This document shows positions 35,762-62,791 of a DNA stretch of 64,000 bases, piece after piece (position 1 is the first letter of the stretch; each line of letters opens with the position of its first letter). Origin of the DNA: Plumapathes pennacea (taxonomy: Eukaryota > Cnidaria > Anthozoa > Antipatharia > Myriopathidae). The notes beneath the pieces are model-generated. The model did not search any database. It was not told where the DNA came from and worked only from the letters and a program-made list of their open reading frames with translations. The DNA lies in assembly GCA_964036295.1 (NCBI GenBank), contig OZ038464.1:4591501-4655500 (forward strand), written 5' to 3'. A program made the translations under genes and the position numbers.

Positions 35762-35906
35762 ATGGCGGACGCCAGACAGACGTCCAGCGAGGAAGATTCT
35801 GATTCATGGGAAACAGCATCAGGATCAACATCAGAAACATGGGAAACAACATCAGAAGAAGCTGCCACCTCCGCTGACGAGGATGCGACCCAAGAACTCG
35901 TGAAAA
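35762..35906 (+). CDS. NLR gene B exon 1: acidic leader
   Basis: ATG at 35762 opens 48 codons (MADARQTSSEEDSDSWET...), rich in Ser, Thr and Glu with two WET repeats, ending A|GTACGT in phase 1. There is no signal peptide, consistent with a cytosolic receptor. The start is chosen because it is the first ATG after a splice acceptor and because the exon joins in frame to the Death exon. It is low-complexity and has no recognised domain. Confidence 0.6.
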
Positions 35907-35976
35907 GTACGTATATCTACAATTTGGCAAGGGTGTCCAGGTTTTCGGATCCAGAAATGCCCTTTAATTTACCACT

Positions 35977-36220
35977 CAGGGCCCAGTTTTTTAAAGCACG
36001 ATTAGGCTAATCCTGGATTAGGTCTAAACTTTCTTGTCATTTTTAGCCTGAAAACGTGAAAGTTTCGTCCACAACGACTTTCTTGATAAGGTTTTAAGCT
36101 GGAACAAGCTTTCTAATCCATCTTCGAACAAAACCCTGCAGTTTATTGGGAGAGAGGTCGAGAGAAAGAATTTCATTAATCCTGGATTAGCTTAATCGAC
36201 TTTCAAAAAACTGGGCCCTG
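35977..36220. mobile_element. GGGCCC-ended MITE, copy 1
   Basis: CAGGGCCCAGTTTTTTAAAG at the left end and TCAAAAAACTGGGCCCTG at the right end, with subterminal AATCCTGGATTAG repeats on both sides: inverted repeats of about 40 bp. It lies in intron 1 of gene B. The second copy is inverted at 51419-51657. Confidence 0.85.
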
Positions 36221-36409
36221 GGGTCTAAATATGCCCCTGAGAATATCACAGGTTGCGGCCAGTTCAGGTCCAGTAAAACGCGGCCAAAAGCTGTGATGAT
36301 AACTCGTGCTTATAATGGCTGTTATTACAAAGCTACTGTTTTGCAATAAATGTACAGTTAGTGAGAACTTTGATCCATGACATTCTTATGATTCAAATAT
36401 TCTGTACAG

Positions 36410-36675
36410 GTGAACCATCTGTCAGAGAGCTAAACAAGTTGGCTCAGAAACTCGCTGGGTGTTGGTATTCTCTTGCAATTCAACTTGGGTTGGACAAAGA
36501 CTCAGTTGATAACATTGATCTCAACAATGCATACCCGACACCAGTTAGAAAAGCGTCTCATGCACTGGTGAAATGGCATAACGAATTCTCACACGATGCA
36601 ACGTATGAGAGACTCGCTGAAGCTTTAAGACGAGTAGGCCGTGGCGATCTAGCACAGAGGTTCTGCTCTTATCAG
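36410..36675 (+). CDS. NLR gene B exon 2: Death domain 1
   Basis: A 266-nt exon (acceptor GTACAG, donor GTGAAC), phase 1 in and 0 out. The product has the Death-fold pattern: LNKLAQKLAGCWYSLAIQLG with the helix-1 tryptophan, a D-x-V-D-N-I helix, ASHALVKWHNE, and YERLAEALRRVGRGDLAQRF at the end. Homotypic Death interactions recruit adaptors or caspases in NLR and TNFR signalling (family knowledge). The exon at 42290 has exactly the same length and pattern, so the two arose by duplication. Confidence 0.8.
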
Positions 36676-37110
36676 GTGAACTCAAAGGTAAATCTGTGTT
36701 TTGGAACAGAAAAATATTCAATGCAAATGAGAATTCAATGCAAATGAGCAATATCTATTGTTTAAGCTGAGGAAGTGAAAGATGAACGCGATTGAAGCGA
36801 GTGGAGGCGCTACGGCATTTATCACTTACTCATACAACCTTGAAGAGCAAAGGAGGGCCTGTAAAGAGTATAATCTGTATTAAATATTTTTACAACAAAC
36901 TTTATCTAACTCTTGGTTCGTCAAGCGTGCAACTGACGTGTGATTCAAAAAAAGTCGATCACGGAATAGGTAATTTCTCGATTTGAACTTTTCTGTCTTG
37001 AATTACCACCAGGAAGTTCATGAAATTACAAAACCAATCGCAAGCTTTAGATTGTTGATCTTTTCACAGTAATCACTTCACATCAGGTTTTATTTTTGTT
37101 GTTTTCTCAG

Positions 37111-37147
37111 AGAGAGAGTACACATGGACAACATGAAAAGAAACAAT
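37111..37147 (+). CDS. NLR gene B exon 3: 37-nt linker microexon
   Basis: TTTTCTCAG acceptor and GTAAGT donor enclose 37 nt encoding RESTHGQHEKKQ plus one base. It converts phase 0 to phase 1, as the 40-nt exon at 42792 does after Death domain 2. It is called from splice signals and phase only. Confidence 0.5.
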
Positions 37148-37566
37148 GTAAGTTGTTTTCTTTCCTCTGATAATCCGGCTGTTTTGCCGGCTATGAAGAA
37201 AGGGACTGGAAACGAGACATGGGCGCATGTTTATACCGCAGTAGATATCATTCAGCTCACTTTTTAGCCTGAGAAAACAGACGTCTCTCATTGCACGCTC
37301 TTCCTGCTTTCTCACTCACTTTACATCTGATTTATTCCAGTATTGTTAGCTTGACTCGGACCGCTCTGCATGTGAGAGAACCGCCTTTTGCAACTGTTTT
37401 GAGTCATTTTTTGTTAATCATGAAGATATGTTGTGTTGGCAGTTATAACATTGACAATAAAGTAAGAGTTTTCATAGCCTGCACAACAGGCGATTTTCTT
37501 TACGGGGAGCGCGTACGAATGGAAAGGCCAGCCAAAAAATACTTTTCGTCTTTTATGAATCAACAG

Positions 37567-37650
37567 CACCACCTGCCACATCAACTGCAGATTCTCAGTC
37601 ACACGAGGAACAGACTGTCAAGAAAACAAGGACAGTGGAGTCTTCTTTAG
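37567..37650 (+). CDS. NLR gene B exon 4: hydrophilic linker
   Basis: An 84-nt exon between CAACAG and GTACAG, phase 1 on both sides, encoding PPATSTADSQSHEEQTVKK and a few more residues. Flexible linker composition. Joining T from exon 3 with CA gives serine and keeps the frame into the FN3 exon. Confidence 0.5.
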   Translation, partial: HHLPHQLQILSHTRNRLSRKQGQWSLL

Positions 37651-38877
37651 GTACAGTACTGTGCTAGGAGATCCGTTTAATGTTGGGGACAAATGAAGAT
37701 CATAATTTAAATGGAGCAATATACCCAAAAGGAAAGCTGAGAGCTGGTTCTGGTAAAAAAAGGGCGTTCTTCGTCATCAGATTTCATGCACCAGAACCGC
37801 AGAAAACCAAAAAGAATTAGAACAGCTTTTTTTATATCGGACAACAGAGTAACTCTATCTCAATACACCATCGCTTCTATACAACAATCTTTAGTTGTTG
37901 TAGTCTTTTACTCAGACAGTTTTTATCAAAAAGACCGTAAACAGCGTTCAGACTTCCCTTAATTTGTTTTATAACAGCAAGTAAGATCTTGAAAAATTGG
38001 ATTTTTTCCCTAGTTTGGTAAAACGGCTGCTCTCTTACTAGAATTGAACCTGTTATATGCGATCTTAACAATACCCATACATTTTGTTAGGGACACAGTT
38101 TGGGTAAATTAGGTCAATTAAGATAGTTTAAGCAGTAGTTTAGTTTGAACCAAGTTGGTGTGACCTCGAGGCTACGTGTGTGGTTGTGGTGTACGAACAT
38201 TAGTCCAGTTTTGTCCAGTGCCTTGTGAAAGTTTACAAAGGAACAGCTGGTTGATATCTCTCCAACGGCCACCCTAGGGACAGAATTGAGTGACCGTTAT
38301 AAGGAGGTGGCCGTTGTGAGGTAGGGGTGTAACATGACAAGACGCAAAATGAACTAAACCTGTGTCGAATTTCGTAAACTTATATTTATGCAAGAGGCTT
38401 TTACTGACATGGATCAAGTTTTATGATCTTTTAATACGCCATACAATAACCACTTCCGAGATGCCTTGGTTCTGTTTCTAAACAAGGTCTAGTGCGAAAG
38501 CTTTCTCATGAAAACTAATTTTCATTTTCATGCAAATTAAACTCATAGTTTTCATAAGGAAGGTTTCGTAATAGACCTCGGTTTGATAAAAAGGCAACCG
38601 GCATCTCGGAAATGTCTATTATATTTATGCATTTGTTCACATCTTAAGCCTATTGTTGATTCTGTAATGGAGAGGTTATATGAAAGATCCCCCCCCCCCC
38701 CTTGCCCCCTGTTTTGCTGGCCGATGCAGGGAGATTTTTAAGCGAATGGATCGGCGGCTGGGACGATTAATTCTTGGCCGTTGTAGGTTGGGATCAGTGG
38801 AGGTTCTACTGTAGGTGTCTGTAATAACAGTTTAGTTTAGATTCAGTCGTCTTTCAATTTTACACTTTTGCTGTTAG

Positions 38878-39174
38878 GACCCAGCTCCCCACCTCAGAAT
38901 GTCACAGCTCGCAGCAATGGCCCAACAAGTATTCTGGTGCAGTGGGACGAAGTGCCGCAGGATGACCGAAATGGACTCATTGAAAGATATGTCGTGGTTT
39001 TTAAAGAAGTAAAGAATAGCAGAGAGGAAAGGAGGTCAGTGAATGCTCCAACTCAGCATTTGGAACTGAGTTCACTAGAGAAATTCAGCAAGTATGACAT
39101 CCGTGTGCTGGGTGTTACGGCCGCTGGAGCTGGACCAGCAAGTTCTGCCCTGACAGTGATGACCAGTGAAAAAG
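38878..39174 (+). CDS. NLR gene B exon 5: fibronectin type III domain 1
   Basis: 297 nt, acceptor GTTAG, donor GTAGGG, phase 1 at both ends. FN3 features: PPQNVTARSNG, SILVQWDEVP, RYVVVFKEV, LEKFSKYDIRVLGVTAAGAG. It is more diverged from the other two FN3 exons than they are from each other, fitting its position outside the A/A' duplication. FN3 modules mediate protein contacts; their presence inside an NLR is unusual. Confidence 0.75.
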
Positions 39175-39432
39175 GTAGGGCTAGTCTTGTTCTTGTTGTT
39201 CTGCCATTTTTAGTTCATCACATTACGGGGTCTTCTAGTTTTATAGCAACTGTGCCCTCCATATTTTTTTCTCTTTCCTGGAAACATGTCCTCTCAGAGC
39301 ATTTCCTAACCCCCTACCCTCAATAAACATCAAAGGGCTTTCTTCTGATTAATGTTGCCGAACAAAAGGCCATTTGGTGGCGACAAAAAGCCCCAGCATG
39401 GCTTTAGGTGGTGTATATGGCCAATAGTGATC

Positions 39433-39434
<2 letters not shown>

Positions 39435-39467
<33 letters not shown>
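39435..39467. repeat. (CA)n microsatellite
   Basis: 33 bases of uninterrupted CA dinucleotide repeat in the intron after FN3 domain 1. Confidence 0.95.
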
Positions 39468-39469
<2 letters not shown>

Positions 39470-39722
39470 AACTGTCCTAATTTCCCTTCTGACTAATCTA
39501 ACTTGGTTATTAGTTATTGCTCGTGGCGAAGCCGACGAGCTTAGGATTGGAAAGCGTGTCTTCATCATCGTCATATTTTTATTTTTATTATTTTTATTTT
39601 TATTTTTTTTCTGGGTTACGAATCAGCACACGGTGATTGGTTGATATTTTCACGTGATTTATGATGACGTTTTGTCATCACATGACTTGCCGGGCGAGCA
39701 GTTTCGCCATTTTGAAGGAGAT

Positions 39723-40808
39723 ATGTGGGCGATGGAATTGTGCGTTGCTTGCCTTGGTTGGCTCTGTGGATTCTTTTATGGACCGCTCATCCTACTTACA
39801 AACGAATACGCCGGCTGCGGTAGACCCACACTAAATTTCATTGAGCGGTTTTGGCTTGGGTCGGTCCGTTCAGCCTCGAAAGCTTTGAAAAGAGCCGCAA
39901 ATGAAGCAATGAATATATCAGTGAACATATCAAAGAACATATTAATGTTCTTATCAATGAACTGCATAGCTATGCACAACTGTACAGAAATGTACGAAGA
40001 TCCTGACGTCCAGAACGTTGAGAACTTGAAGGAACAAGCTGAACGAAGGAGTTCCAAATGCAAAGATCAGAACCCGAATGATATTAACGGCAAAGCAACT
40101 TCGATTTTTGGCCATCGCTTGATAGTGTATATGGAACTGTTTAGTATGAAGGTGAACTTAAAGGTACTTTGTATTCTTTTACTTTGTATTATTCTTGCTG
40201 ATACAAGTAAAGCGTCAGAAAATCTGACTTTTCTTTGGAATCAACGTTTCACTCTGTTGTGCATTTGTGTTGTTGTTGCGACATTTTGGCTCAGTGCCAT
40301 GAAGATCAAACAGGCAGCAGATAACGTGGCGTTATTATTTGAAAATTGGAACATGATTGAAGAAGAAGTGGTCGTTGGTAGATCTCGCTTTGAGCAGTTC
40401 TATTGTATTCCCAGTAATGTTTATGTGAAAGAAAATCGAACTCGTCCAAGACGAAGTCGTGAGCCAAGCCGAGTGCCTTTGAATGAACTTTCGCGCGTTC
40501 TGAACAAGGACAGGAAAAGCAGGCGACTATTACGAGAATACATTTCAAAGAATGTCCCAGAGTCGTCAAAAGTTCATGATTATACCAGAGCTTACGTACT
40601 TCACAATGCTAATGCATTCCGTGAACGTGCGCGTAAACAACATGGAAACAATAGAAAGCCACAGAAATGCAAAGAGAAAATTAGGATCAATAAACCATCG
40701 CTGCGAGAAAGCTATAAGTTCAAAAAGAAGTGGGCGAAAGCAGAAACCAAAGCTACGGTGAGCTTTAGCCGTAAAACAATGACGCTTTATGCTTTACTCT
40801 GTACATGA
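39723..40808 (+). CDS. family X protein with hydrophobic segments and basic C-terminus, unknown function
   Basis: First ATG of the frame at 39723; the frame is open further upstream from a GTG at 39654. About 361 residues. Three hydrophobic stretches are visible: CVACLGWLCGFFYGPLILL near the start, VLCILLLCIILA around residue 155-170, and LLCICVVVATFWLSAM around 180-195. The last 130 residues are strongly basic (RTRPRRSREPSRVPL, KDRKSRRLLREYISK, and lysine-rich to the end). The diverged homologue at 446-718 shows the basic part evolves as protein. No intron is needed. Not recognised; possible element-encoded protein or retro-copied host gene. Confidence 0.45.
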   Translation: MWAMELCVACLGWLCGFFYGPLILLTNEYAGCGRPTLNFIERFWLGSVRSASKALKRAANEAMNISVNISKNILMFLSMNCIAMHNCTEMYEDPDVQNVENLKEQAERRSSKCKDQNPNDINGKATSIFGHRLIVYMELFSMKVNLKVLCILLLCIILADTSKASENLTFLWNQRFTLLCICVVVATFWLSAMKIKQAADNVALLFENWNMIEEEVVVGRSRFEQFYCIPSNVYVKENRTRPRRSREPSRVPLNELSRVLNKDRKSRRLLREYISKNVPESSKVHDYTRAYVLHNANAFRERARKQHGNNRKPQKCKEKIRINKPSLRESYKFKKKWAKAETKATVSFSRKTMTLYALLCT

Positions 40809-41765
40809 CATCTGTTGCCTCATAAAATTCTTCTGCGTATCGTACATTGCCTGTTGAAGTGTTTCTTTCATTCGATCATGTAGCCTTTGTTTCGCAATGG
40901 TCAGTGAATACCAGAAATGAAAAATACACCGAAATAATTCTGAGGATTGAGTTTGCAGTCACAAATGGACTGAACACACTGTGAACAAAAGCGCAATAAT
41001 ATTGTAAACATCTCTCGTGTGACATTCCTCGCTGTCAATTTTATATTTGTTACAGAGCACGAATACTCGAAAGCCTGATAGAAAGAAACGTATTGAGTTA
41101 ATAAAAGAAAACATATAAGTAGTGAAGCGAAAAAGTAAACTGCATCCCATTCAAATTCAACACCATTTGGCTCTGTGGAATAGGCACGGATAAACTGGAT
41201 TTTAGGAAAAGATTTTGGCTCGCGTTCACCGCACAAGCTTTGAGAATAGCCGTAAACAAATGTTTGATGGTACTTCTGGGGTATTGCAAATATCTCTGTC
41301 GCCGATAAGTATTTAGTCGCCGACGAAACTTTCTGTGGCGACACGAAATACTTTTGGGAAGATAACAGGGCGAAAACAGAAACCAAAGCTACGGTGAGCT
41401 TTAGCCGTAAAACAATGACGCTTTATGCTTTACTCTGTACATGACATCTGTTGCCTCATAAAATTCTTCTGCGTATCGTACATTGCCTGTTGAAGTGTTT
41501 CTTTCATTCGATCATGTAGTCTTTGTTTCGCAATGTTCATTAAATACCAGAAATGAAAAATACAACGAAATAATTCTGAGGATTGAGTTTGCAGTCACAA
41601 ATGGACTCGCGAACACTGTGAACAAAAGCGCAATAATATTGTAAACATCTCTCGTGTGACATTCCTCGCTTTCAATTTTATATTTGTTACAGAGCACGAA
41701 TACTCGAAAGCCTGATAGAAGAAACGTATTGAGTTAATAAAAGAAAACACATAAGTAGTGAAGCG
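40735..41765. repeat. direct repeat, about 380 bp, period about 636 bp
   Basis: The stretch from GAAACCAAAGCTACGGTGAG (40743) to AAGTAGTGAAGCGAA recurs from 41379 with few changes. The spacer holds GTTTGGCTCTGTGGAA-type sequence (inverted sense to the repeat order in copy Y). Confidence 0.85.
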
Positions 41766-41799
41766 AAGGCTGGATTAATCGTGGCCTCTGATTAGAAAT

Positions 41800-42030
41800 A
41801 TGAGTCAAGGTCAAACTGTCAAAATCGATTGTGCATAAAAAGATATGTCACGCATTCTCAAGATGCAGGGTCGCTCAACCTTTAAGAAGCAAGTGTATGA
41901 GTGTTGTAATAATAATTTTTAGTTTAATCAAGGTGTCAAAAGAGCAAGGTGTCAAAAGCCAAGTTCTCTATACTGTGTGATATTTTTATGGTGAGAAATT
42001 GGAAGTCTCTCTTGGGAGTTCCGCTCTTGT
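41800..42030. mobile_element. CTCCCAAG-family MITE remnant, copy 5
   Basis: Fragments AAAAGCCAAGTTCTC, GGTGAGAAATTGGAAG and TCTCTTGGGAG match the family in reverse orientation; ends are degraded. Confidence 0.45.
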
Positions 42031-42289
42031 CCCCTACTTCCCATTTTATATTCTGGTCTCGACCCAACTCACGCCGCGAGCTCACTGGCAAGGCCAGTCT
42101 AGTTTACAGATTTAATCGAAAAGTTTCCATATTAAGGCATGCATGTATCTTTGTCAGACTGAAGTGTGACATAATGCCATATTGTTTTAGGATCAGTGTG
42201 GGTACATAGAAGCGAAGAAGCAACTTCCCTAACCCTTCAACTCTAGTTAGTTTTCGAATAGTTACAGTTTGTTGAAACTTGCTTTACAG

Positions 42290-42555
42290 GTGTTCCATCG
42301 GAAATTGAGCTTGACAATTTGTCTAAAGAAATAACGCTGTGCTGGGAGTCAGTTGGCATCCAACTTGGGTTGCGCCAAGAAGTGATAGACAACATCACTG
42401 CCAACAACGTTCAAAACCCTCGACCTGAGCAGAAGGCCTATAGCATGCTTATAGCATGGCGAAACCAAGGCAGCGCTTCAACATGGGATAAACTCTCAAA
42501 AGCGCTGATATGTGAAAAGAAATATGATCTGGCCCAAATGTTCTGGCCTGTACAG
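42290..42555 (+). CDS. NLR gene B exon 6: Death domain 2
   Basis: 266 nt, acceptor CTTTACAG, donor GTAATG, phases identical to Death exon 1. Product: IELDNLSKEITLCWESVGIQ with the helix-1 tryptophan, LGLRQEVIDNITANN, AYSMLIAWRNQG, TWDKLSKALICEKKYDLAQM. About one third identical to Death domain 1, so the duplication is old. The last helix lacks the GR-x-DLA arginine seen in domain 1 (EKKYDLA instead), which could alter partner choice. Confidence 0.75.
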
Positions 42556-42791
42556 GTAATGATGCAGTGAATGGTTTTTAACCAGGGCGAGAATTCTTTA
42601 AGAGAGTGTAATATGTGTATCTGAATTTCGTATATTTTTCTTTCGAGTGTTTTGCAAACAGTTTTATTCCCGTGTGTTTTTTTCCTTCTATTTTGTAGAA
42701 CAGTCTTTCTTTTCTCTTTCTTTCTTTTTTTTTTTTTTTTTTTTTTGTGGAGTGTTGATGTTTTTTTCGTTTTGTTTTTTGTTTTTTGTAG

Positions 42792-42831
42792 AGTGCTGAT
42801 GGACATCAAGTGGCATTTGGAAGTGTTGCAG
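42792..42831 (+). CDS. NLR gene B exon 7: 40-nt linker microexon
   Basis: A long T-rich tract and TTTTGTAG precede SADGHQVAFGSVA plus one base, then GTACTA. It brings phase 0 back to phase 1, like exon 3, and joins in frame to the FN3 exon at 51688. Confidence 0.5.
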
Positions 42832-44839
42832 GTACTAGTGAGTTTGTTTTCTGAGCTATCATTATAGATTATTATAATAATCATTTCGGAAATCGAAGAA
42901 ATGGAAAGTAACGTTTGCTTTTCAATACATTTTAGCTCTTTCACAAGTTTTCATGAAATACTCACCGCCAGATGTAAATGTTTGAAAACTTCGGTTCGTA
43001 CAATTTGTGTCACATATACTTAATATTTTTATTTAAAATTTTATCGCATGCAGTTCCATGCAACTGCGTCATCCATTTTTATGTCTGCTATCCGTTTAGC
43101 TCGATCTCTTAGTCAAACATTAGGCGTTTTAGGTCCGGTGTAAGCCATGGGGCGCAACCTTTTCAAATTTTTCGTCTCCTTTCGAAAGCATGTTTGTCTG
43201 ACATCTCCAAAAAAAACGTCTTGCAGAAATCCAGGGCTTGAAGATCTTCTCTAAAAGCCTTAGAATCAAACTTTAAATTGTTCGCTTTCTACACTGATTG
43301 GTCTACTTTTAAGTACATAGAGCTTTCGTAGGCTGTATATCAGACTGTGGTTGCTGATGCCCAGGTGTACTGTGTTAAATATCTTGTCTGAGGTAACTCG
43401 ACTACTCGTCTGAATTTCTCTCTTTTTCCTTAATTCACTCTTTCTGTTTCTGACATCAAACTATGTCTTATCTTGATAGTTCGACTACTCGTCTGGATTT
43501 CTTTCTTTTTTCTTCACTTACTCTTTCTATTGCTGACGTCAGACTATGTTGTTGGTAAAAGTAAATAGCCGGAATTCCAAGGTTGAGTTGGCAACGACAC
43601 AAAGTAACCTTTGTCTTTTTCCAGCTCGAAACGTACGATAACCGTTGACAGCTGGCATCCTTCGTCTTTTTGCCTGTGTAAAAAGTCAATCAGAAACAAA
43701 CTCGACCGGACATAACCAGGTCATGTTAAGGTTGTAATTTCGTCAGATTGGACAGCCAAAAGTTTAAAAATTCACATGAGTTAAGGCCCAAGAAAACGAA
43801 CGCACCATGTTGGTCAACATCGCCAAACATTGTGCACTGAATGCTTCTGAGACGCATTCTGCGATGCATTTTGGCGTTTTCCATCGTCTATTTTTATCGG
43901 GCTCATAATTGCGGACCCCAACAATACTATACAGTTTTTCAAAGAGTTTTGAGTTTTGGGTTTTCCAAAGACTGTTGGACGATGTTGTGCCAACATGTTG
44001 CGTTCGTTTGCTCGGACTTGATTTTGAAACGTTACGTTCCGTTCGTTTGCTTGGACCTTTACTTTATTTTGGCAATTACCTGTGCTTACGAAGTTCAGCT
44101 GCTTTGTCGTTGTCAATATTTTCTTTTTGCCAGCAAATACGATTTTATTCAGAAGGTTGCAAACTATTATTATTTTATTTTAATTTTTTTGTTAAAGTGC
44201 GTATAATCTCTAGAACGATAACATCTAAGATTATTCGTCTACGAATTTGAAACAATTTTTTGTTTCGAAAGAGCTTAGAAAAATTCGACACGGACATTCT
44301 TTTCACGTTTAATCTTGGCGAAAAGGACTATTATTTTTTTGCGGCAATTTTGAATTATGACCGAGAAAATAAACCCTGGGTAAAGCTATGTTCTGATATC
44401 ATGCAAATAACCTCTGACCCATGCGTGCTTCATCTGAGGCGGAGCCAATCTCAAAATCTGATTTGGAAGCCAACATTAAAAAGTCACGACAAAAGATAGA
44501 GACAAACAAAAACAAAGAAACAAACAAAAACAAAGAGAAGCTGAAGAACAACTTGCTGACATGACGTCATGTAAGTACTAGTTCTCACGCGGACGCTCGG
44601 ACGTAACTTCTTGCATGCATTTTTGTCGGCGTGTAAAATGTCAAGGTGAAGCTCAAGCTAATCATTATGTTTTACTTGATCAAAGACTATGCAAAGAATT
44701 CAAAAGTGTAGTTTTGGGCTGATGATACTCAGTTCTCCTAACAATACTTTTGCTACGGACAAAAAGTACCTAAAAAGGACCTTGACGTAATGTTAGACAA
44801 AATGCTACCTTTCAAACCTTAGTATCAGATCTCATGGGA

Positions 44840-45530
44840 AAGCGTAACATTAGACAGAATTCTATCCTTCAATGATCATGTCACTACCTTCGTATCAGAT
44901 CTCATGGGAAACCTACGTATGAAAAGCAGAATTAAGCACCCCCTAGACCAATCGATGCTATTTACTGCAATTAATTCACTAGTTTTTACCAAGTTATTCT
45001 GCTGTTCTTTAGTATGGTCTGGCACCAGCAGATATAACGTCGCAAAACTGCAACTTGTACAAAATTTTGCATTTCGATTACTCTCAGGCAATATTTAATC
45101 ATATTTACATCTACACTTAAGCAGCTTACACTCCTCCCAATATCTGACCTCCTCTACATTAAAGACGCCCTACAAATGCATGAATGGCCTGGCTCCCAGT
45201 TATCTCAAATATTTGTTCATTAATATATCCCACGTGCACAATTATAAGACTAGAAATGGTAACAATGTCTACAATTCCCTTCATGTCAAGCTGCAGAATC
45301 AGAATCGTTTGTGGATCGTGGCGCTCGTATCCGGAATTCTATATCCAATGAGATGCGAAGTTGTTGCAATTCCGCTATTTTTTTTTTTTTTTTTTTTTTT
45401 TTTTTGAGAGTAAACTTAAAACAAAGCTAATGAACTTTTTTTTTGTTTTGTTTTGTTTCTGTTTTTTTGACCCTAGCCCACTTGGTGAAAATATTTTCAT
45501 AAATTTCATTGATACTGTTTTTTGCTTGTA
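44840..45530 (+). mobile_element. non-LTR retrotransposon 3' fragment (family of 1205-1965)
   Basis: ILDRILSFNDHVTTF, then NVAKLQLVQNFAFRLLSGN in shifted frames, a run of T at 45380-45405 and the same 3' segment as at 1890-1960. Truncated and dead. Confidence 0.55.
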
Positions 45531-45599
45531 AACAAGACTGGTGCCAGTGAGCTCGTGGCGTGGGTGGGGACCAGAAGAAACTAAAATGGATAACAGGGA

Positions 45600-45795
45600 C
45601 AAGAGCGAGACTCCAAAAAGAGACTTGCAGTTTCTCACCAGAAAAATATCATCCAGTATAGAAAACTTGGCTTTTGACATCTTGCTCAAATGAAACTACT
45701 ATAAATTGTCATTACAACACTACACTTGCTTCCACTTGCTTCTTAAAGGTTGAGCGACTATGCATTTTGAGCTAAGGAGTAAAAGGTCAACCCAA
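45600..45795. mobile_element. CTCCCAAG-family MITE remnant, copy 6
   Basis: AGAAAACTTGGCTTTTGACAT, TATGCATTTTGAGCTAAGGAG and flanking sequence match the family; ends degraded. Confidence 0.45.
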
Positions 45796-45932
45796 AAAAG
45801 AGTAATGCGTGACTTATCTTTTCATGACAGTCGATTCCTCGAACACTTTTTTTTAATCAGAGGCCACGATAATCTAGCCTTCGCTTCAGTACTTATGTTC
45901 ATTTTTTTACTAGAAATACGATAATCGCAGAT

Positions 45933-46504: not shown

Positions 46505-47249
46505 ATACCCCCTCACTCTGCCATTGATGGGACTTTTACTTTGGTAACTCCCAACAAGAGTAGCCTTTGTTTTACCGAAATGTTGACTCGATCTTTTCTT
46601 CGAAGTCAAGTGCTACACGCAAAGGAAGGAGAAAAAGAATGGTGTGTGTTATACTTTTGCGTTGAAAAAAGAATCGATTGCGTGACGAAGTACGTATTTC
46701 CCACGGTCGGCACGTCAAATTAATTCATGCAGTCTGCCAAGCACGTTCTCAAAATTTAATACTCAAAGTTTGAAGTTGGTCGGCCGTCGTAGTACGGGAA
46801 AAAAGGAACACTGATTTTCCAATTTTGAATTCATAGGCAGTACAATTAAATAGGCTTCCTGTGCGATTTGTTTTTACTCTGGACTGCATGCACCAGATTC
46901 AGACATGCATATTTAATAGGCTCGAATTGTTTTGTATGTGAACCCACTCAAAACAGCAAGATTTCTCCCAGAATCAAAGCAAAACTTGAACAGTTTACTT
47001 CAAATTATACACGGGCTTCAGACCCAGTAATACTTCTAAGGGCTTGTGAACGATTCTCGCTGCAATCACCGCGTGTCAGATTACAGAAAAATAAGACATC
47101 TGACTAAATCATTCAAGACTCCAAGTTCCGATTGCTCTGAGCGAATACGGTAGCCGAAACTGGCGACAGAAGCGTAGTAAAACAATACTTCGAGGGAAAA
47201 TGATCAGCATACAGATTTTAATACATTCTTGAAGTGATCAAGTTACAAG

Positions 47250-47639
47250 CTATACGGGATACAATATATTTGTCACGGTGATTGTTCGGTTTCCACTGAC
47301 TAACCTTTGTTGCTTGTCCTTTCTAAATAAGTATCTGAGTTTAACACAAAACGGCGTCTGAAGCTCCCGATTTGCTTTCAAGCGCTGTTCCCTTTGCGGA
47401 GTCTTCTCTTCGGCCCGCTTTTTCTCCTGAAGGTCCCGATTCGCTTTCAAGCGCTGTTCTTTTTGCGGAGTTGTCTGTGTTGCCCGCTTCTGTTCATGTC
47501 GCTTTTGGTCGGCATTCATGCGCTGTTGTCTTTGCGGAGTCTTCTCTTCGGTCCGCTTTTGCTCTTGAAGTGCCTGTTTGCTTCTCTTTTGAAGACGAGC
47601 TTCGCGAGACCGTTCTGTTTCAAGTTTTCTAGCTTTCAA
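47250..47639 (-). CDS. element-borne Lys/Gln/Arg-rich repeat protein, shorter copy
   Basis: Counterpart of 16538-16996 on the minus strand, with one 23-residue unit fewer. Frame intact. Unknown function. Confidence 0.35.
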   Translation of the reverse strand: MKARKLETERSREARLQKRSKQALQEQKRTEEKTPQRQQRMNADQKRHEQKRATQTTPQKEQRLKANRDLQEKKRAEEKTPQREQRLKANRELQTPFCVKLRYLFRKDKQQRLVSGNRTITVTNILYPV

Positions 47640-48055
47640 ATTCATTTTCGTGAACGCAGTTACGTACAATTGTTGCTTCGTTCAAATCTTTCTTAAAAAC
47701 ATGGCGGTGGCTAGTCGATAATGATTACGTCATTGCCTTATTTGGACATTGCCTTAGGCACCTGGCCTAAAAAGGTCGCATCGCACAAAACACACACACA
47801 CGAACATTAGATTTCGAGATGGCGACGCGCTTGGAGTCTTCAAATGAGCCGACTATGCTGCATTAGCGTCGTAAATATTTCCCTCACTTCGTTCGGGGAC
47901 TAAATGCGTTCCTTCTATGAGGCTTTCGAGTATTCCCGCTCCGTAACATGAATGGAATTGAAAACGAGAGTTTGTTTACAAATTGCGGTTTTGTTTACAG
48001 CGAGTAGTCATTTGTGACTAACAAACTTAATGCTTTGGACTATTTCGGCGTATTT

Positions 48056-48760
48056 ACTTGGCCAAAAAGCCAAGTCTAGGAATGGGCATTTTTTTTTGTT
48101 TTTTGTTTTTTTTTTTTGTTTTGGGGTAGAGAAATGGCGCACGCTGATTGGTTGGGCGCTCTGTTTTTGAACAAGTAAATTTTGCTGACGCGTTCTGTCC
48201 TTCGGATGTTGGTACGTCTTGTCGGAGTATGTGTGATTACAGCAATGAAAGAACTCTTCAATCGAGAATTCGAAATGAAAACAATATTCATACATAGAGA
48301 AAATCGTAGTTGCATTGTTTACTGCGGCGGCATTGTGCGTCAATGTAAAAATCGTCGACTATCGCAACCAGATAGACAGATGGATAGATACTAGATGCTT
48401 TATTGACTAAGATACTTGCAGCCATAGGCTGAATTGCGATTTGACCATAAAGCCGCGAGTGAATAATAGTCTTCAAACATACAGATAAGCAAAGTACATG
48501 TAGTTGCGCTGTTTGCAGTGGCAGCTTCGTATACATTAATGTGAAAACCGTCGACTTCCATTGGCAGCATCGTGCATCAATGTCAGGACCGTCGACTTTC
48601 CTTGGCAAATAACCGCGACCATAAAGCTGCGTTGCGTGTATTAAACGTTGTAAACAGCTTAATGAACGTGTGTAATGAACGGAATTTAGTGTGGGTCTCC
48701 CGCCGCTGTTGTGTGACTTTGTAAGTGAGACGAACAGACGCATAATTCAGTTACCTACAT
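48056..48760 (-). mobile_element. family X-related fragment, copy Z
   Basis: On the minus strand, sequence near 48680-48740 reads TCACTTACAAA ... GAGACCCACACTAAATT, matching 39793-39838 of copy X. At the other end a short hairpin (CTTGGCCAAAAAGCCAAG, 48057-48074), T-rich tract and CACGCTGATTGGTTG resemble the terminal arrangement of copy X. The coding frame is not preserved. Confidence 0.35.
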
Positions 48761-49149
48761 TCGTGGATTTTAATCATTCCAATCTTGAAAACACAAGGTC
48801 CATTTAGAAGAAACGTGATCCTTTAATAAAGTAGGATACATTCTTGTCAAGAGAACCAACCAGTGTTATTGTTGGTTAGAGCATCAAACGTAAATCTGGG
48901 CGAGAGTCAGACTTTGTTTTCATGGTCAAAATCTTCAAATCAATTAATCCATGAACACTGAAGAGCCTACTCAAGCGCCCTTTACCCGAGTTGTGTTACC
49001 TTTGTTGTTTGTAACTCCTCACAGGGGTGCAGACAGACATATTTTTACAAATCATACAATGACAAGACAGATAAACCACTCTAACAGTACCCTGGCCAAC
49101 GCCAGGCTTGTTTATTTCTAGTATACAGTTACCACTGCAAAACAAAGGC

Positions 49150-50600
49150 TACATGATCGAATGTAAGAAATATTTCGACGCTAGGCCCGTTGTTATTCCT
49201 CTTATATATAAATGACCTTCCAAATTCATCAAAGAAATTACTATTTAGAATATTTGCAGATACCAATATTTTTTACTCCTCAAAACATCTGAATGAATTA
49301 GAAAGAGCTATAAATGAGGAACTTACAAATGTTGTAGAATACTGTGCTGTAAATAAACTCTCAATTAATTTTAAGAAGACAAACTATATGCTTATTACTT
49401 CCCCTTGGAAAAAGGTAAATATATCAATAACAACATGTAACATAGAGGAAAAAACACAGATAAAATATCTAGGTGTTTTTATTGATAACCACTTACAATG
49501 GGATGCACATATAAAACATGTTAATAATAAACTTGCAAAGAATATAGGCATTTTAAATAAACTTAGATACTACATTCCTATTAGTACCCTTAAGCAATTG
49601 TATTATACTTTAATATATTATATCCATATATTAACTATGGCCTAATGAGCTGGGGCACTGCCTGCAAATCCCAACTACAAGTAATCAAAACAAAACAAAA
49701 CAAATGTCTGCGCTCTATTTTTTTTGCAAAAAGAAGGGAAAGTGCTGACCCATATTATAAACTCCTAGACATACTCAATCTTGAGAATGCCTTTAAGTTT
49801 AAAATCTCTATCCTTATTTATAGAATCAAATATGATAACACAAATATTCCAGAACCCTTTATTGAACTAATTCCATCTGCTTCTGAAATCCACAACTACA
49901 ACACTAGATATGCCTCAAACAGCAATCTATACAGACCAGCTTCCAGGACAAACTATGGCTTATCCAGATTCAAGTCTCTTGCCTCAAGGATATGGGAAAA
50001 AATCCCTCTTGAAATTAAAACCTCATCTAAAAGAACCTTCAAAAAAGATTATAAGTTATTCCTTCTTGACAGCCAGTAATACTTAAATGAGTATATGTAT
50101 TGATTCATTGTATCATATATTACCTAATATATCCATATAGCTCGTTCCTGTAGAATATATAGAAACTAGTTCCTATTTCCTATTGTTAACACCTTTCTAT
50201 TAGCATTTTTCTCATTCCCTTATCTACTTTCTGTAAAAATTCCTATTATTACTATATATGTATACAGAACCTGTAGAATATATAGGAATTAGCTCCTATT
50301 TCCTATTGTTAATACATTTCTATTAGAATTTTTCCTATTCCTTTATCTAGTTTCTGAAATGTTTTTCCTATTACCACTATTTAGATTTCCTAATTTCCCT
50401 TGACAATTTTACTTACCTATGGTAGTGGTCAACTCGAAAGCTGCATAGCTACTTTGAACACTACGCACATCCATCTCAACATATCTAATAATAGTATTTT
50501 CTCTCTTTTTTCTTCTGTAACATGTTCCTATTTAATTCTAAAAAAAAAAAAAAGAAAAAATAGTGCAAAATAAAATGAATGAATGAATGAATGAATGAAT
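49150..50600 (+). mobile_element. non-LTR retrotransposon, 5' truncated, inactive
   Basis: Two consecutive frames, 49190-49645 and 49645-50079, read as the palm-to-C-terminal part of a non-LTR reverse transcriptase: LLYINDLPNSSKKLLFRIFA, KLSINFKKTNYMLI, IKYLGVFIDNHLQWDAHI, then MSWGTACKSQLQVI and RIWEKIPLEIKTSSK. The catalytic box reads FADT, lacking one of the two expected aspartates. A one-base frameshift lies near 49620. The 3' end is an A-rich stretch and a (GAAT)n tail at 50577-50600. Confidence 0.85.
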
Positions 50601-50614
50601 AATATATTCACAGA

Positions 50615-51235
50615 GCCGGCAGCGTTGCGTAGAGTCTTAAACGACGAGAAACGGCGAAAATAAATATTTCGTCATAAGAACGGTTACACTTTCGGTGAAA
50701 AAACTTTACAAAACAGCTACAGTATGTACGAGGCAACGGATGTCTTGTACAGTATAAAGCATAAATCATCATTGTTTACGGCTAAAGTTCGTCATGGCTT
50801 TGGTGTCCGTTTTTGGCCTAGTATCTTCCCAGAGGTTCTTCGTGTTCGTCGGGGCTAAATAATTAGCGGCGTTATTTGCAATCCCGTAGCGATATCCATT
50901 AAATATATAATCGAATCCATCAAACATTTGTTTACGGTTATGACGATGAACTTATGAAAGCCAGCCAAAAATCGTTCCTTGAAATCCAGTTTACCCGTGC
51001 ATGTTCCACAGAGCCAAACGGTGTTGAGCTTGGATGGGATATAGCTAACAAGTTGTTCGCGAAGTGACCTTACGTACGTCATCGCATCTCACGTGATAAT
51101 ATGAACCAATTACCGTGTGCTGATTCTCAACCCAGAAAAGAAAACTATGGAAAAAAAAACAAAAACAAAAACAAAAAACAAAAAAAAAAAGAATTTTCAT
51201 TTTTAAGCTCGCGGGGCGTGGCCCCACGAGCAATT
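50615..51235 (-). mobile_element. family X element, copy Y (short form)
   Basis: From the hairpin GCTCGCGGGGCGTGGCC... at 51209-51233 leftwards, the minus strand shows poly-T, CAGCACACGGTAATTGG, GTTTGGCTCTGTGGAAC, ACCGTAAACAAATGTTTGATG and TTTAGCCGTAAACAATGATG, all present in the 3' half of copy X. The long ORF of copy X is missing. It ends where block A' begins. Confidence 0.6.
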
Positions 51236-51418
51236 AGGCATGAAAAGCCCTGGTGGAAACCTAATAAAACCATATTGTATTGCATTGTATTGTATGGACA
51301 CAGGTTGTGAGAATTAGATCAATTCTTGGTTTGCAATCAATCCCTAGAGAATCAGAATACAAAGAAATAACACCGTAGAGGTTAATGAGCAATCTTTTGT
51401 TAAAAGTCACCCATTGTA

Positions 51419-51657
51419 CTGGGCCCGGTTTTTCGAAAGTCGATTAAGCTAATCCAAGATTAACGAAATTCTTTCTTTCGACCTCTCTCTCAATAAACTG
51501 CAGGGTTTTGTTCGAAGATGGATTAGAAAGCTTGTTCCAGCTTAAAACATTATCAAGAAGGTTGTTGTGGACGAAACTTTCACGTTTTCAGGCTAAAAAT
51601 AACAAGAAAGTTTAGACCTAATCCAGGATTAGTCGTGCTTTGAAAAACCGGGCCCTG
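51419..51657. mobile_element. GGGCCC-ended MITE, copy 2 (inverted)
   Basis: CTGGGCCCGGTTTTTCGAAAG and GCTTTGAAAAACCGGGCCCT ends; internal sequence is the reverse complement of 35977-36220. TA on both sides. Block A lacks it at about 2140, so it post-dates the duplication. Confidence 0.85.
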
Positions 51658-51687
51658 TAGTATTCTAATTTCTTTTTGCTCTTTCAG

Positions 51688-51984
51688 GACTCAGCTTTCC
51701 ACCTCAGAATGTCAAAGCTCGTAGCAATGGCCCAACAAGTATTCTGGTGCAGTGGGACAAAGTGCCACAGGATGATGGGAATGGAAACATCAAAGGATAT
51801 GACGTGGTTTTCCAAGACTTAAAGAGTGGCAAAGAGGACATCAAGAGAGTGAATGCTCCAGCTACACGTTTGGAACTGAGTTCACTAGAGAAATTCAGAA
51901 AATATGACATCAGTGTTCTGGCTTTCACTGCTCTTGGAACTGGACCAGCAAGTCCTGTCATAAAAGTGATGACTGGTGAAAAAG
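51688..51984 (+). CDS. NLR gene B exon 8: fibronectin type III domain 2
   Basis: 297 nt, acceptor TTTCAG, donor GTATAG, phase 1 both ends. Nearly identical to the FN3 exon of gene A, with changes such as FTDSGSGRED to FQDLKSGKED and AGSGPASSVL to LGTGPASPVI. The changes cluster in exposed loops while core residues stay, suggesting function is retained. Confidence 0.8.
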
Positions 51985-52085
51985 GTATAGTTAAACTACA
52001 ATCCTGGTCATCCTTGATTATATTGCTACATGGTGAATATAGCCCTGAGAACACTGGACAAATTGACTAAATTTTTCCCCTGCTT

Positions 52086-52107
52086 CCCCCCCCCCCCCCC
52101 CCCCCCC
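52086..52107. repeat. poly-C tract, 22 C
   Basis: Uninterrupted run in the FN3-to-NACHT intron; gene A has only CCCCCTCC here. Confidence 0.95.
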
Positions 52108-53213
52108 TCCCTCATACTGGATCAGGGCACAAAGCACAAATTCAACATTGAAAGGGGGGACCCTCAGGAAGTGCCCTGTTCTAAAACATGACCAATTAAT
52201 TGGCTACTAATGAGTGGAATGATAATAATCAATTCCCGAAAATATTTTCGTCTCCACTTCAGCCATCTCTTGGAATTTTCTCATCCCAAACTATCATTGA
52301 CACAGCAGGACCGACTGGGCATGTCTTGCCTGCAAGAAGCTCTCGTTTCACAGAGCTCAAAATCACAGCAGATTTAGATTTGAGCTTCTGCTGACTCAGT
52401 AAAAAGTATATCTACAGTAGGTTTGCCCAGTTCCATTAACAGGGTATTCTCACTTGTGCTGGTCTAAACCAACTTTCTTATGTGGACTATATGCTACAGC
52501 TACCATACTTTGTTTCAAATGCAAATAAAAACAACTTATGTTTTGTAACTTGAGCACATGTTGTTACAAAATAATAAAACAAATATTATTGTCTGATAAT
52601 AGAGGCCACCATGTGATGTCATAAGTATAACATAGGGGCAGGACAATTCAAAAAAGTCTTGTAGACCAGAAAATCAATCAATACAGTATGGCACCTAATG
52701 CATAAGTCAAAACTAACAGAGCAATACATGTAAATTTAGGAATCAACATGCATTTAAAGGGCCCTATCAACTGCAGTCCTTTGCACACCAAAATTCTTGA
52801 TTCCGCCATTTTAAGGGCCCCAGAAAGTCGAAAGATGAATAGCAATCCATTTCCATCTGACTCATTTAAGGAGAAGATTGCTTTCTTTTGATCTAAAGAT
52901 GCCGATAACCTATTTTATTTTGATTAATCGCAATCTTTCATTTTGGGAACCAAATTCAGCCTTGGATTTCCAGATGTAAACAAAAACATAGAGGCTGGGC
53001 CCCTTTACAAAGGCTCTTGAGAGAGCAGGTTGTTTGTCAGTCAATCTTCCACACCACACTTTCCCAATAATCTTATAGTCAGAGTGACCCATTAAAGACT
53101 GCTACAGGTAATAGATATTATTTTATTCTAATTAAGTTACAGTAATTTATATGACTTGCTTCTTACAGTAGGTGCATAGCATAAATAACTTTTGATTTTC
53201 TTACATTCAACAG

Positions 53214-56038
53214 AGTTTGAGCAACTTAGATGTCAACTGGCTCAGTTCTATGAGGAAAGCATGTGCGAAATTCAGGTGGCACCTTGGGACCCAGACGACA
53301 CAGTGCATGTTGATGAAGTTTACACGCGACTTTCATGGAGCAGAGAAAACAAGCAGCTCAGTGGAACAAAAGAAGAAGAACTGGATGACTATACTGACAT
53401 TTTTCTTTGTTCAAAAGGCAGTGCTAATCCTAAAAGGATTGTTGTCTATGGGCAAGGTGGAATTGGCAAGTCAACATTCAGTCAAAAATTATCAGTCGAT
53501 TGGGCTAGAGGAGAGGTAGAGGCACTAAAGAAGTTTGACCTGTTGTTAGTCATCAAGTTGAGGGATGTCTGTGGTGAAGTTAGAGATCTCAAAGAAATGA
53601 TTGTGCAATCAGGACTCTTACCTTGTGATGAGCCTGCTCAAGTGGACTGTTTGTTGAAATGCATATCTGAAAATCAAGATAGAGTTTTAATCCTCTTTGA
53701 TGGCTTTGATGAGTATGACAAAACAAGAGATACTCAGTCAGATGTGTATAAGATTATAACAGGAAAGATGCACAGAGGTTGTCATGTAGTGGTGACCACC
53801 AGGCCAGTAAAGTTAGATGAATTGAAGAAGTTCATGCAAGCTCAGTGCAAGATCAATGGATTCATCGAGGAGGACATCAGAAAGTTTGCTTCCAAGTATG
53901 TTGGAGAAGACCAGTGTGATACCTTCATGAATTACTTGTGGGAGCAAGATCTTCTGAACATGGCATCAATTCCACTTATGCTTCTTTTTTTGTGCCTCCT
54001 GTGGAAAGAAAAAAAAGATCAACCTCTCCCCAGCACAAGAACCCAGATTTTTCAAAAAGTAACACAGTGCATCATTGATCACTGCCAAGTCAAACAGTCT
54101 CCTGATAATCTGAAATCCACAGAAGAATACAGTGAGACATTGTGTAAGATTGGCAAAGTAGCATTTGAAGCACTGCTTCAGGATTCTTTAGTGTTTGACA
54201 CAGCCCTGCTATCCAAGGAAGTACTAAGTGATGATATTGTACGACTAGGTTTTTTGTCAATGTCCAAAGTCCAGCACCAGCGTTCCAAGTTAATGGCTTC
54301 ATTTTTTCACAAGTCTGTTCAAGAATTTCTTGCTGCCTGGTACATCGCAAAACAGCCGTGGATAAGCACCTTAGAACCCCTACAAGACTTTAGTACTGCT
54401 AAGAACTGTCAAGCATGTCTTGAATTTGTTTGTGGCTTGTCAGCTGATGGTGCTAATACTGTTTTCCTGCACCTTCAGAAAATCAGAGAGAAAGAGAGTC
54501 TGGTACCAAAATGTGACGTCGCAAGATCGTACTTGGACTTTGACAGTAATCAAATAGAGTTTCAAAACTTCTGCCGCACAATGTTTTTGAAATTGGACTG
54601 TAAAGAAGCTTTTGTGGGAGCATATCTTGACTGTGTGGGCGGAGTGGTGCAGTTTTATGACACGATTTTCTCGGGGAAAGCAGTTGGGATCAAAGACTCG
54701 GGGGGGCAATTGCTTTCATTGCTGCTTCGCCACGACAGCTTGGTTCAGCTTCAATTCGTCTTTCATGCGAGCGATCCAGACAAAATGAAAGTCATGAAGG
54801 TGTTTGATCAAGAGGATGTCAGGACGGTAACATGGGCATCAGGTGGTCAATCGAAAGGTTCAGAGTTACTTGAGACCACAACAAAGGAACAACAGTTTTT
54901 AGTATTAAGAAAGGAAACTGTGCTATACCTTTGTTATGATGTACCCAGTGATGTTTCTTTCACACCTGAGCTCGTTCGCCTTTTTCAGCCTCCAGCTTCA
55001 GACCAGAGTCCTTCAGAGAGCGAAGCGTCCGAGCCTGAAAACGGTCAGAAATTTGACACAAATCAACAATCGAGTGCTTTAGAAAATGAGCTGCCTGTAC
55101 ACGCGTTGTCATTTGTCACTAAAGCTCATTTTGAGTACGTTCCGGAAGATACAGTTTGGGTTGAAATACTGAAGAATGCTCCATACTTAACTTCGCTGAA
55201 TTTATCAAACAATCCCTTTGGAGCTGGAGTGAGTGTTCTCGCCAGTCAACTGGAAAATCTTCCAAAGCTGAAGGAGTTGCACCTGGAGAACACAGGGATG
55301 AGTGAAAGAGAAGCTGCTGACCTGTCAAGAGCGCTGGTTCATATTCCACACCTGACGCGTCTTTCTTTGAGTAGCAATACCCTTAGAGCTGGAGTGAGTG
55401 TTCTCGCCAGTCAACTGGAAAATCTTCCAAAGCTGAAGGTGTTGGACCTGGAGAACACAGAGATGAGTGAAAGAGAAGCTGCTGACCTGTCAAGAGCGCT
55501 GGTTCATATTCCACACCTGACGCATCTTTGGTTGGGTTCCAATCCCCTTGGAGCTGGAGTGAGTGTTCTCGCCAGTCAACTGGAAAATCTTCCAAAGCTG
55601 GAGTGGTTGGACCTGGAGAAAACAGAGATGAGTGAAAGAGAAGCTGCTGACCTGTCAAGAGCGCTGGTTCATATTCCACACGTGGATTTTCTTTCGTTGG
55701 GTTCCAATCCCCTCGGAGTTGGAGTGAGTGATCTCGCCAGTCAACTGGAAAATCTTCCAAAGCTGGAGAAGTTGGACCTGAACAACACAGAGATGAGTGA
55801 AAGAGAAGCCGCTGACCTGTCAAGAGCGCTGGTTCATGTTCCACACCTGATGCATCTTGATTTGGAGGACAATCCCCTTGTTGGTCGTGGCGTCATTTGT
55901 TTGGCTAAGCAGATAGTGACCCATGTGCCTGAGCTTCAGTGGCTGCATCTTCACAACACAGGAATGGATGACGAGTGCAAAGCTGCTCTGGTGAAAGCCA
56001 AGCAAAACAGGAAAAAAGCGGGAGGCGAGGATTTTAAC
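53214..56038 (+). CDS. NLR gene B exon 9: NACHT NTPase plus expanded leucine-rich repeats
   Basis: A 2825-nt exon, about 941 codons, phase 1 in and 0 out (AACAG acceptor, GTGAGT donor). NACHT landmarks as in gene A: GQGGIGKST (Walker A), LILFDGFDE (Walker B), VVTTRPVK, FHKSVQEFLAAWYIA. Residues between NACHT and LRRs include a Ser/Glu-rich hinge (DQSPSESEASEPENG). The LRR part has four 56-residue units, two more than gene A, with substitutions concentrated at the variable positions of each LXXL segment (HLENTG, DLENTE, DLEKTE, DLNNTE). The final LRR, MDDECKAALVKAKQNR, is shared. All ATP-binding residues visible in the family are intact. Confidence 0.9.
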
Positions 56039-56958
56039 GTGAGTATACTGACATGTTTATACATATGACTTTTATTGACCCTTCAATGCCCAAATATCCA
56101 AATCCTAAATACCTTAACCTGACACAAAAAGAAAGTAAACCAGGAGGGAAAGATTTCAGAGTGCTTGTGAATACAACAGTTCTGATAAAATACATTGTTT
56201 TTGAATCAGTTGATATTGTCGTTTTAGTTGTTTGAATAGTTTTCAACTATTACTTGAATTTGAGAAGACAAGAACAGCAAAATGTGGATCAAAGACGAGT
56301 GAGGAGGCTCGCAAAAGTTTGTTGTACATTCAATCAAGGTTATCGTAATAATACCTTAGCGAGTGTCTGCCGCTATAAAGCATTTTGAAAGGCTGTAGCA
56401 TGGAAACCTTTACACTGTAGAAAGTATGGTTTCAAACAAACTTTCTTTCATAAAGAAAGACATTTTAGCAGTGGAATTCAAGCTACAGTATAAAAATGAT
56501 AATACTAAAAGTTTACAGGCGTTCATATTTTCGATAATTTTGGTGCTGGGTTTTGCCCTGTATTGAAATACTGCATGCAATTTGTGAAATATCTTTCTAT
56601 AAAGTAACTAATAAATCTCGTGGAGACCCACGTACAGTATTTATACGATTTATACGATGGCCGTTGTACGTACTGGTGATGCTGATCCGAACCGTTTGTA
56701 TCGAAGTCAGAGCTGCGAATTTAGTAAATTTTATTAGAGTGAGATAAAAGCTAGAGTTGGTAATTTTAATCAAAGAAAGACACACTCATTTCCTTTGAAG
56801 CAAAGTTGATTTGACTTCTTCCTAGTTTAGCCAGTGAGGTAATGAGAATGTTGCTTCTTTTTATATCACACTGTCAAAATATTGCTTTCCATAATTTTTC
56901 TGTGTGTGGATCATTGACTAACATACATGTATGTGGACAATATTGTCTCTCATAACAG

Positions 56959-57000
56959 ATTGCTGTTGATGGTGTAAATGGAGAGCAGAAATATTTGTGA
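56959..57000 (+). CDS. NLR gene B exon 10: terminal coding exon
   Basis: After ATAACAG the frame reads IAVDGVNGEQKYL and stops at TGA 56998-57000. Adding all ten exons gives 4299 nt, divisible by three. The gene A counterpart stops earlier. Splicing from the GTGAGT at 56039 is assumed; read-through would give a different eight-residue end. Confidence 0.55.
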   Translation: MAVDGVNGEQKYL

Positions 57001-57324: not shown

Positions 57325-57330
57325 AATAAA
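57325..57330 (+). terminator. candidate poly(A) signal of gene B
   Basis: AATAAA 325 bp after the stop codon. Other AATAAA hexamers exist nearby, so this is only the nearest plausible one. Confidence 0.3.
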
Positions 57331-62722: not shown

Positions 62723-62734
62723 GTCGCTTGAAGG

Positions 62735-62791
62735 AGAAAATTGAAGAAGGAGAAAATTAAACTTGATCACTCTTGGGAGTGAAAGGGTTAA
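62735..62791. mobile_element. CTCCCAAG-family MITE remnant at deletion junction
   Basis: Right end of the element at 18112-18319 (ACTCTTGGGAGTGAAAGGGT). A GAAGGAGAAAATT stretch is duplicated just before it. Confidence 0.75.

Follow-up and report, generated by a model that had tools for sequence, protein, structure and literature searches.

Among NLR-type receptors, the NOD2-like receptors carry tandem CARDs ahead of the NACHT domain. In invertebrates, Death-NACHT proteins are described for amphioxus, sea urchin and Nematostella in passages of PMC2575513, passages of PMC12909245 describe Death-NACHT-LRR receptors (NLRD; LRR, leucine-rich repeat) in a sponge, and fibronectin type III (FN3) domains occur with TIR2 in a ctenophore according to passages of PMC11797021. 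We analyzed a stretch of 64,000 nucleotides (nt) from Plumapathes pennacea (GCA_964036295.1, contig OZ038464.1; hereafter the window), which corresponds to C3:4591501-4655500 in a genome of 290 Mb and 24 contigs and in which positions 35762-57000 of the forward strand encode two Death and two FN3 domains in alternation, followed by a NACHT domain and LRR. With a probability of roughly 0.7, we interpret this element, which we call copy E of a family of copies A to P, as a single gene for a cytosolic NLR-type receptor with the order Death1-FN3a-Death2-FN3b-NACHT-LRR that acts by the mechanism set out below; its domains, exon structure and conservation are reported first.

An earlier note on this DNA knew of no described class with alternating Death and FN3 domains, and the open literature that we searched bears this out: no receptor combining FN3 with NACHT appeared in titles and abstract openings among the matches listed, or in the passages of the papers that we compared (PMC11797021, PMC8242945, PMC8260672, PMC4083563, PMC10236652, PMC12909245, PMC7642931, PMC2575513, PMC5094078, PMC8699970, PMC7308585, and PMC7959794). 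A passage of PMC8260672 puts at 35 the number of domains that accompany NACHT in cnidarians and itemizes them in its supplement; FN3 may be among them, and the domain tables of PMC10236652 and PMC2575513 may likewise include FN3 with NACHT.

Gene model and domains

The earlier note had joined ten exons in phase through GT-AG boundaries into 4299 nt, equal to 1433 codons including the stop, and splicing and translation of the model confirmed each of these statements; all nine introns are GT-AG with matching phases, and the only stop is terminal. The features of the gene are as follows.

35762..35906, + strand: exon 1, start codon and acidic Ser/Thr-rich leader (145 nt)
36410..36675, + strand: exon 2, Death domain 1 (Pfam Death 43.4 bits; PDB sequence match CRADD/RAIDD, E 1.3e-6)
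37111..37147, + strand: exon 3, phase-restoring linker (37 nt, length 1 mod 3)
37567..37650, + strand: exon 4, 28-codon linker (84 nt)
38878..39174, + strand: exon 5, FN3 domain a, FN3a (Pfam fn3 53.2 bits; 297 nt, phase 1-1)
42290..42555, + strand: exon 6, Death domain 2 (Pfam Death 28.6 bits; six-helix model)
42792..42831, + strand: exon 7, phase-restoring linker (40 nt)
51688..51984, + strand: exon 8, FN3 domain b, FN3b (Pfam fn3 58.1 bits)
53214..56038, + strand: exon 9, NACHT and LRR (Pfam NACHT 87.5 bits, LRR_4 57.5 bits)
56959..57000, + strand: exon 10, 13 residues and stop (frame and stop common to copies A, B, C, and F)
57325..57330, + strand: AATAAA, possible polyadenylation signal (direct sequence reading)

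A Pfam scan recovered the domain order that had been read from the letters, Death, fn3, Death, fn3, NACHT and LRR, with every score listed above over its curated cut-off (Death 22.6, fn3 25, NACHT 26.7, and LRR_4 27 bits). Each Death exon is separated from the NACHT exon by an FN3 exon, and no Death domain stands directly ahead of NACHT. The NACHT domain carries the motifs GQGGIGKST, LILFDGFDEY and VVTTRP, with Walker A and Walker B both present, and the exon for NACHT and LRR has matches to NLRP3 (E 1.1e-26) and to NLRC4 (E 6.1e-18); the regions after NACHT score below cut-off for NOD2_WH (14.3 bits, cut-off 23.1) and NLRC4_HD2 (15.4 bits, cut-off 33.1).

The two Death domains are 41% identical and, judging from their sequences, are probably not interchangeable. 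Besides its best PDB match to CRADD/RAIDD, Death 1 matches p75NTR and RIPK1 more weakly. Sequence matches of Death 2 are weak (best RIPK1, E 0.084); this domain, the one modeled, was predicted as six helices (pLDDT 78.5), and in Foldseek the top matches of the model were TNFR1, ankyrin, RAIDD and other death domains with TM up to 0.79, none of them at E<=0.001. FN3a and FN3b are 66% identical in copy E and 66-72% identical within a gene across the copies; in the PDB, FN3b matches receptor-type phosphatases F (E 1.5e-29, the best) and delta, titin, DSCAM and contactins. Phase 1-1 FN3 exons are typical of shuffled modules.

Conservation among copies in the same genome

Six copies were read at the DNA level (A, D, E, F, G, and N; copy J is known from matches only), and in all six exon 1, Death 1, exon 3, exon 4, FN3a, Death 2, exon 7, FN3b and NACHT follow in this order on one strand. 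Splice sites and phases are kept among them, with N using a different exon 1 donor. The exons for Death 1, FN3a, Death 2, the exon 7 linker and FN3b measure 266, 297, 266, 40, and 297 nt in every copy, while exon 3 (37 nt in A, E, F, and N, 28 nt in D and G) and exon 1 (145 nt in A, E, and F, 175 nt in G, 199 nt in D) vary in length and stay at 1 mod 3; exon 4 is 84 nt long in five copies and 75 nt in A. No exon piece compared among the copies contains a stop codon, and in A, D, F, G, and N all ten exons for the two Death domains pass the Pfam Death cut-off. Between E and N, whose NACHT domains are 70% identical, 18 stretches are similar; 16 of them coincide at least in part with predicted exons, with exons 1-9 each touched, and in N a well-shaped donor 56 nt before the usual one (giving a 61-nt exon 1) opens 1302 codons through the NACHT exon.

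This comparison bears on whether the region could instead be divided in two, with a short Death-FN3 gene at about 35762-39174 and a Death-FN3-NACHT-LRR gene next to it from near 42290. Such a division would fit the long introns of copy E, where intron 5 (3115 nt) and intron 7 (8856 nt) both carry large insertions, and it would fit copy O, which has Death, FN3 and NACHT matches without the second pair. In the relatives, however, the intron between FN3a and Death 2 measures 439 nt in A, 521 nt in D, 508 nt in F, 519 nt in G and 298 nt in N, phases join, and both units are found in order in six of six copies. Each gene has one start exon, upstream of Death 1, and the stretches searched revealed no second start exon ahead of Death 2; a genome search with the exon 1 protein of E matched only A, E, F, and J, the exon having diverged in D and G. 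We therefore rejected the two-gene division, which we regard as very improbable given the single start exon and the short introns of the relatives. That one transcript includes all exons, as the earlier note had proposed, we infer from genomic relatives rather than RNA, and the reading is supported because of the single start exon, the short introns between FN3a and Death 2 and the kept phase-restoring linkers. That positions 35762-57000 form one gene spanning all ten exons is, on these sequence grounds, well supported.

Two open frames lie within the long introns of copy E. One, at 49157-49642 in intron 7, matches RVT_1 (32.6 bits, cut-off 29.6), and the other, at 39645-40808 in intron 5, encodes 387 residues with no Pfam match over cut-off.

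One locus could also yield several transcripts, the full receptor together with shorter forms such as a Death-FN3 decoy or a product that skips exon 4. Exon 4 (84 nt) can be skipped without a change of frame, and when exon 9 is left unspliced to exon 10 a stop is met 24-27 nt past the donor in A, D, E, and F. Against this, the linker exons 3 and 7 are needed for phase and are kept in all six copies, so that full inclusion looks like the conserved product, and we consider a mixture of forms rather unlikely.

The ends of the gene model are less firm than its middle. The exon 1 ATG is kept in all six copies, and the frame from the exon 1 acceptor to this ATG contains an in-frame stop in A, D, F, and G and is open in E and N. 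From the alignment, the true start of exon 1 is probably the conserved acceptor (AG at 35733-35734, with the exon beginning at 35735) and not the ATG; a 5' exon would therefore lie upstream. Exon 10 is the least sure exon of the model: its frame is kept in A, B, C, E, and F, D has an early stop, and the G and N stretches compared gave no match. A shifted exon 3 acceptor in copy E was considered and dropped, as an alignment with equal exon lengths needs none and the placement of a 2-nt gap differs between two alignments.

Selection was estimated from the proportions of nonsynonymous and synonymous differences (pN/pS). Pooled over domain exons, A-D gave a ratio of 0.46 (p 0.0017), A-G 0.57 (p 0.016) and E-N, with Death 1 excluded, 0.49 (p 1.6e-5); these are not independent pairs. 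Within A, D, E, F, and G the individual exons gave 0.75 for exon 1, 0.41 for Death 1, 0.76 for exon 4, 0.39 for FN3a, 0.48 for Death 2, 1.02 for FN3b and 0.49 for NACHT, and between this cluster and N the ratios were 0.95 for Death 1, 0.63 for exon 4, 0.33 for FN3a, 0.83 for Death 2, 0.46 for FN3b and 0.49 for NACHT. These data also bear on whether copy E is the decaying remnant of a once-active gene, for which the insertions in introns 5 and 7 and the pairs E-F and F-G, which do not reject neutrality, would speak. With 1433 open codons, the NACHT motifs in place and the low E-N ratio, decay is hardly credible.

FN3b follows a course of its own. Across the cluster copies its pN/pS of about 1 is compatible with diversifying or relaxed selection, with exchange between copies, and the FN3b exons of E and G are 99% identical while the synonymous divergence (dS) of their NACHT domains is 0.19. 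This contrast suggests sequence exchange between copies.

Predicted site and mechanism

The resemblance of the FN3 domains to those of LAR-type receptor phosphatases would be in keeping with a membrane receptor that exposes its FN3 domains outside the cell, and passages of PMC8699970 describe the sea cucumber Ig-NACHT protein AjNLRC4 as a receptor in the membrane whose Ig domain faces outward. Such an arrangement is extremely unlikely for copy E, in which Death domains stand on both sides of FN3a and a hydropathy scan of the protein, the sole method used, found nothing like a signal peptide or a membrane span ahead of NACHT; the peak 19-residue hydropathy (1.87, at residue 723) falls just past the Pfam NACHT stretch and within the NLRP3-matched region. 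With a Death domain on either side of FN3a and no membrane stretch seen, the FN3 domains of copy E most likely share the cytosol with the Death domains. FN3 domains of this kind function inside cells too, as in titin.

For the single cytosolic receptor we propose the following mode of action. The transcript would join all ten exons, and the LRR end of the protein would sense a microbial or damage cue, upon which the NACHT ATPase would swap its nucleotide and then oligomerize. The assembled N-terminal arms would gather the Death domains and so seed a death-domain assembly on RAIDD-, FADD- or RIPK1-like adaptors, with an output of caspase or NF-kB type. The FN3 domains would act as cytosolic spacers that determine how far Death 1, Death 2 and the NACHT ring stand apart, and they might serve as docking surfaces too. 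A further and unlikely elaboration is an articulated signaling scaffold: once NACHT has oligomerized, the FN3 spacers would keep the two Death domains on separate tiers, such that one ring seeds two different assemblies (a RAIDD-like one via Death 1, a second via Death 2) with two simultaneous outputs, and FN3b, whose pN/pS is near 1 between cluster copies, would add a fast-changing contact surface.

Several points weigh against a single, constrained receptor gene of this kind. Adaptor binding and the role of the FN3 domains are argued by analogy only. Constraint is weak in places, namely in FN3b within the cluster and in Death 1 and Death 2 when compared with N, and the F-G (pN/pS 0.66, p 0.11) and E-F (0.66, p 0.21) pairs are not significant. 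At 8.9 kb, intron 7 of E is longer than in the other five copies and contains a reverse transcriptase piece. The two E-N similar stretches that lie off exons fall in intron 4 and just past exon 10, with exon 10 itself untouched, and copy N, when read with the usual exon 1 donor, stops after 46 residues.

The gene family and its place among known systems

The genome holds 183 NACHT candidates, and every one of the 100 that were scored matched; the NLR repertoire is therefore large. Of the 100 scored NACHT domains, 16 have an FN3 match (from 150 scored of 438 candidates) on their own strand no more than 20 kb upstream; 15 of these 16 places fall into a single family on C3, and the remaining one is at C12:1.75 Mb. 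By match positions, the C3 family comprises seven Death-FN3-Death-FN3-NACHT genes (A, D, E, F, G, J, and N), seven with three FN3 domains and NACHT and no such Death match (B, C, H, I, K, L, and M) and one Death-FN3-NACHT gene (O). Copy P combines a domain resembling Death 1 with NACHT, and nothing in it matches FN3 at an E value below 0.14. The alternating architecture is thus represented by about seven copies on C3, six of them in one cluster. Copies A (C3:4482397-4485927) and J (C3:4875901-4879431) share 99.97% identity across 3 kb of intronic and flanking sequence, which may reflect a segmental duplication of very recent date or a duplicate in the assembly, and J was therefore not counted as an independent copy. 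At the C12 place, five FN3 matches on the minus strand (C12:1762138-1765065) stand 16-19 kb upstream of a same-strand NACHT (C12:1745817), possibly an independent pairing. Part of paralogue D, whose Death exons lie left of the window, falls within it.

2223..2519, + strand: FN3b exon of neighboring paralogue D (copy comparison)
5026..7556, + strand: NACHT-LRR open frame of paralogue D

In a NACHT tree of ten copies, P is farthest, on a long branch, N groups with O (100/99), B and C stand beside F (100/99), and A-G form a single cluster (86/99, drawn open). The alternating order was probably present in the common ancestor of N and this cluster, since both carry it; a unit has perhaps been lost from copy O, and the genes with three FN3 domains probably represent a later change, as far as the tree can tell. 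A stepwise series from P through O to E was considered, but the grouping of N with O means that O is not necessarily an intermediate. A Death-FN3 cassette recently duplicated within the gene found no support, as Death 2 is nearer to the Death domains of an NLR cluster on C11 (up to 56% identical) than to Death 1 (about 42%); in the FN3 tree, 9 of 13 inner branches are open. Derivation of the FN3 domains from a phosphatase gene was rejected: the FN3 array beside phosphatase exons (C5:25.97-25.98 Mb, minus strand) is just 38-49% identical, and the highest outside FN3 identity, 53%, is at C5:22.57 Mb, with no phosphatase match nearby among 150 scored of 165 candidates.

All seven genes with three FN3 domains and NACHT share a domain of about 196 residues ahead of their FN3 matches (example C3:4515812-4516399). 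It occurs 19 times in the genome and also precedes Death and NACHT matches at six of eight C11 places, as well as on C2 and C12. Searches that included a nine-row profile brought neither a Pfam match over cut-off nor any PDB match, and the domain is apparently an undescribed NLR-associated one. Elsewhere in the window, the C-terminal half of a rhodopsin-type G-protein-coupled receptor (7tm_1, 40.3 bits, cut-off 30.5) lies at 62151-62756 on the minus strand, and an Rfam scan returned nothing at gathering scores.

Taken together, these copies indicate that NLRs can adopt FN3 modules, whose best matches among solved structures are cell-surface FN3 domains, as intracellular parts in a repeated and conserved order. 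One genome thereby offers a natural set, Death-NACHT, Death-FN3-NACHT, Death-FN3-Death-FN3-NACHT and FN3x3-NACHT, with which the effect of death-fold spacing and number on NLR output can be tested.

Compared with mammalian NLRP3 and NLRC4, copy E shares the NACHT-LRR similarity and the Walker A and B motifs; its N-terminus, however, is built of Death and FN3 domains and not of PYD or CARD, and its helical domains past NACHT remain below Pfam cut-offs. With NOD2-like receptors it has in common two death-fold domains ahead of NACHT, although those of copy E are Death and not CARD and are separated by FN3. LAR-type receptor tyrosine phosphatases share the FN3 module alone, and copy E has no phosphatase domain and no membrane span was seen in it. 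AjNLRC4 shares a beta-sandwich domain joined to NACHT, but passages of PMC8699970 give it as membrane-bound and without CARD and LRR, whereas copy E has Death and LRR and no membrane stretch was seen. The NLRD likewise form large repertoires and have Death, NACHT and LRR in the order found here; copy E differs in alternating two different Death domains with two FN3 domains and in its phase-restoring linker exons. Because an FN3 exon stands between each Death exon and NACHT, copy E is, by its sequence, a variant of NLRD and not a plain member.

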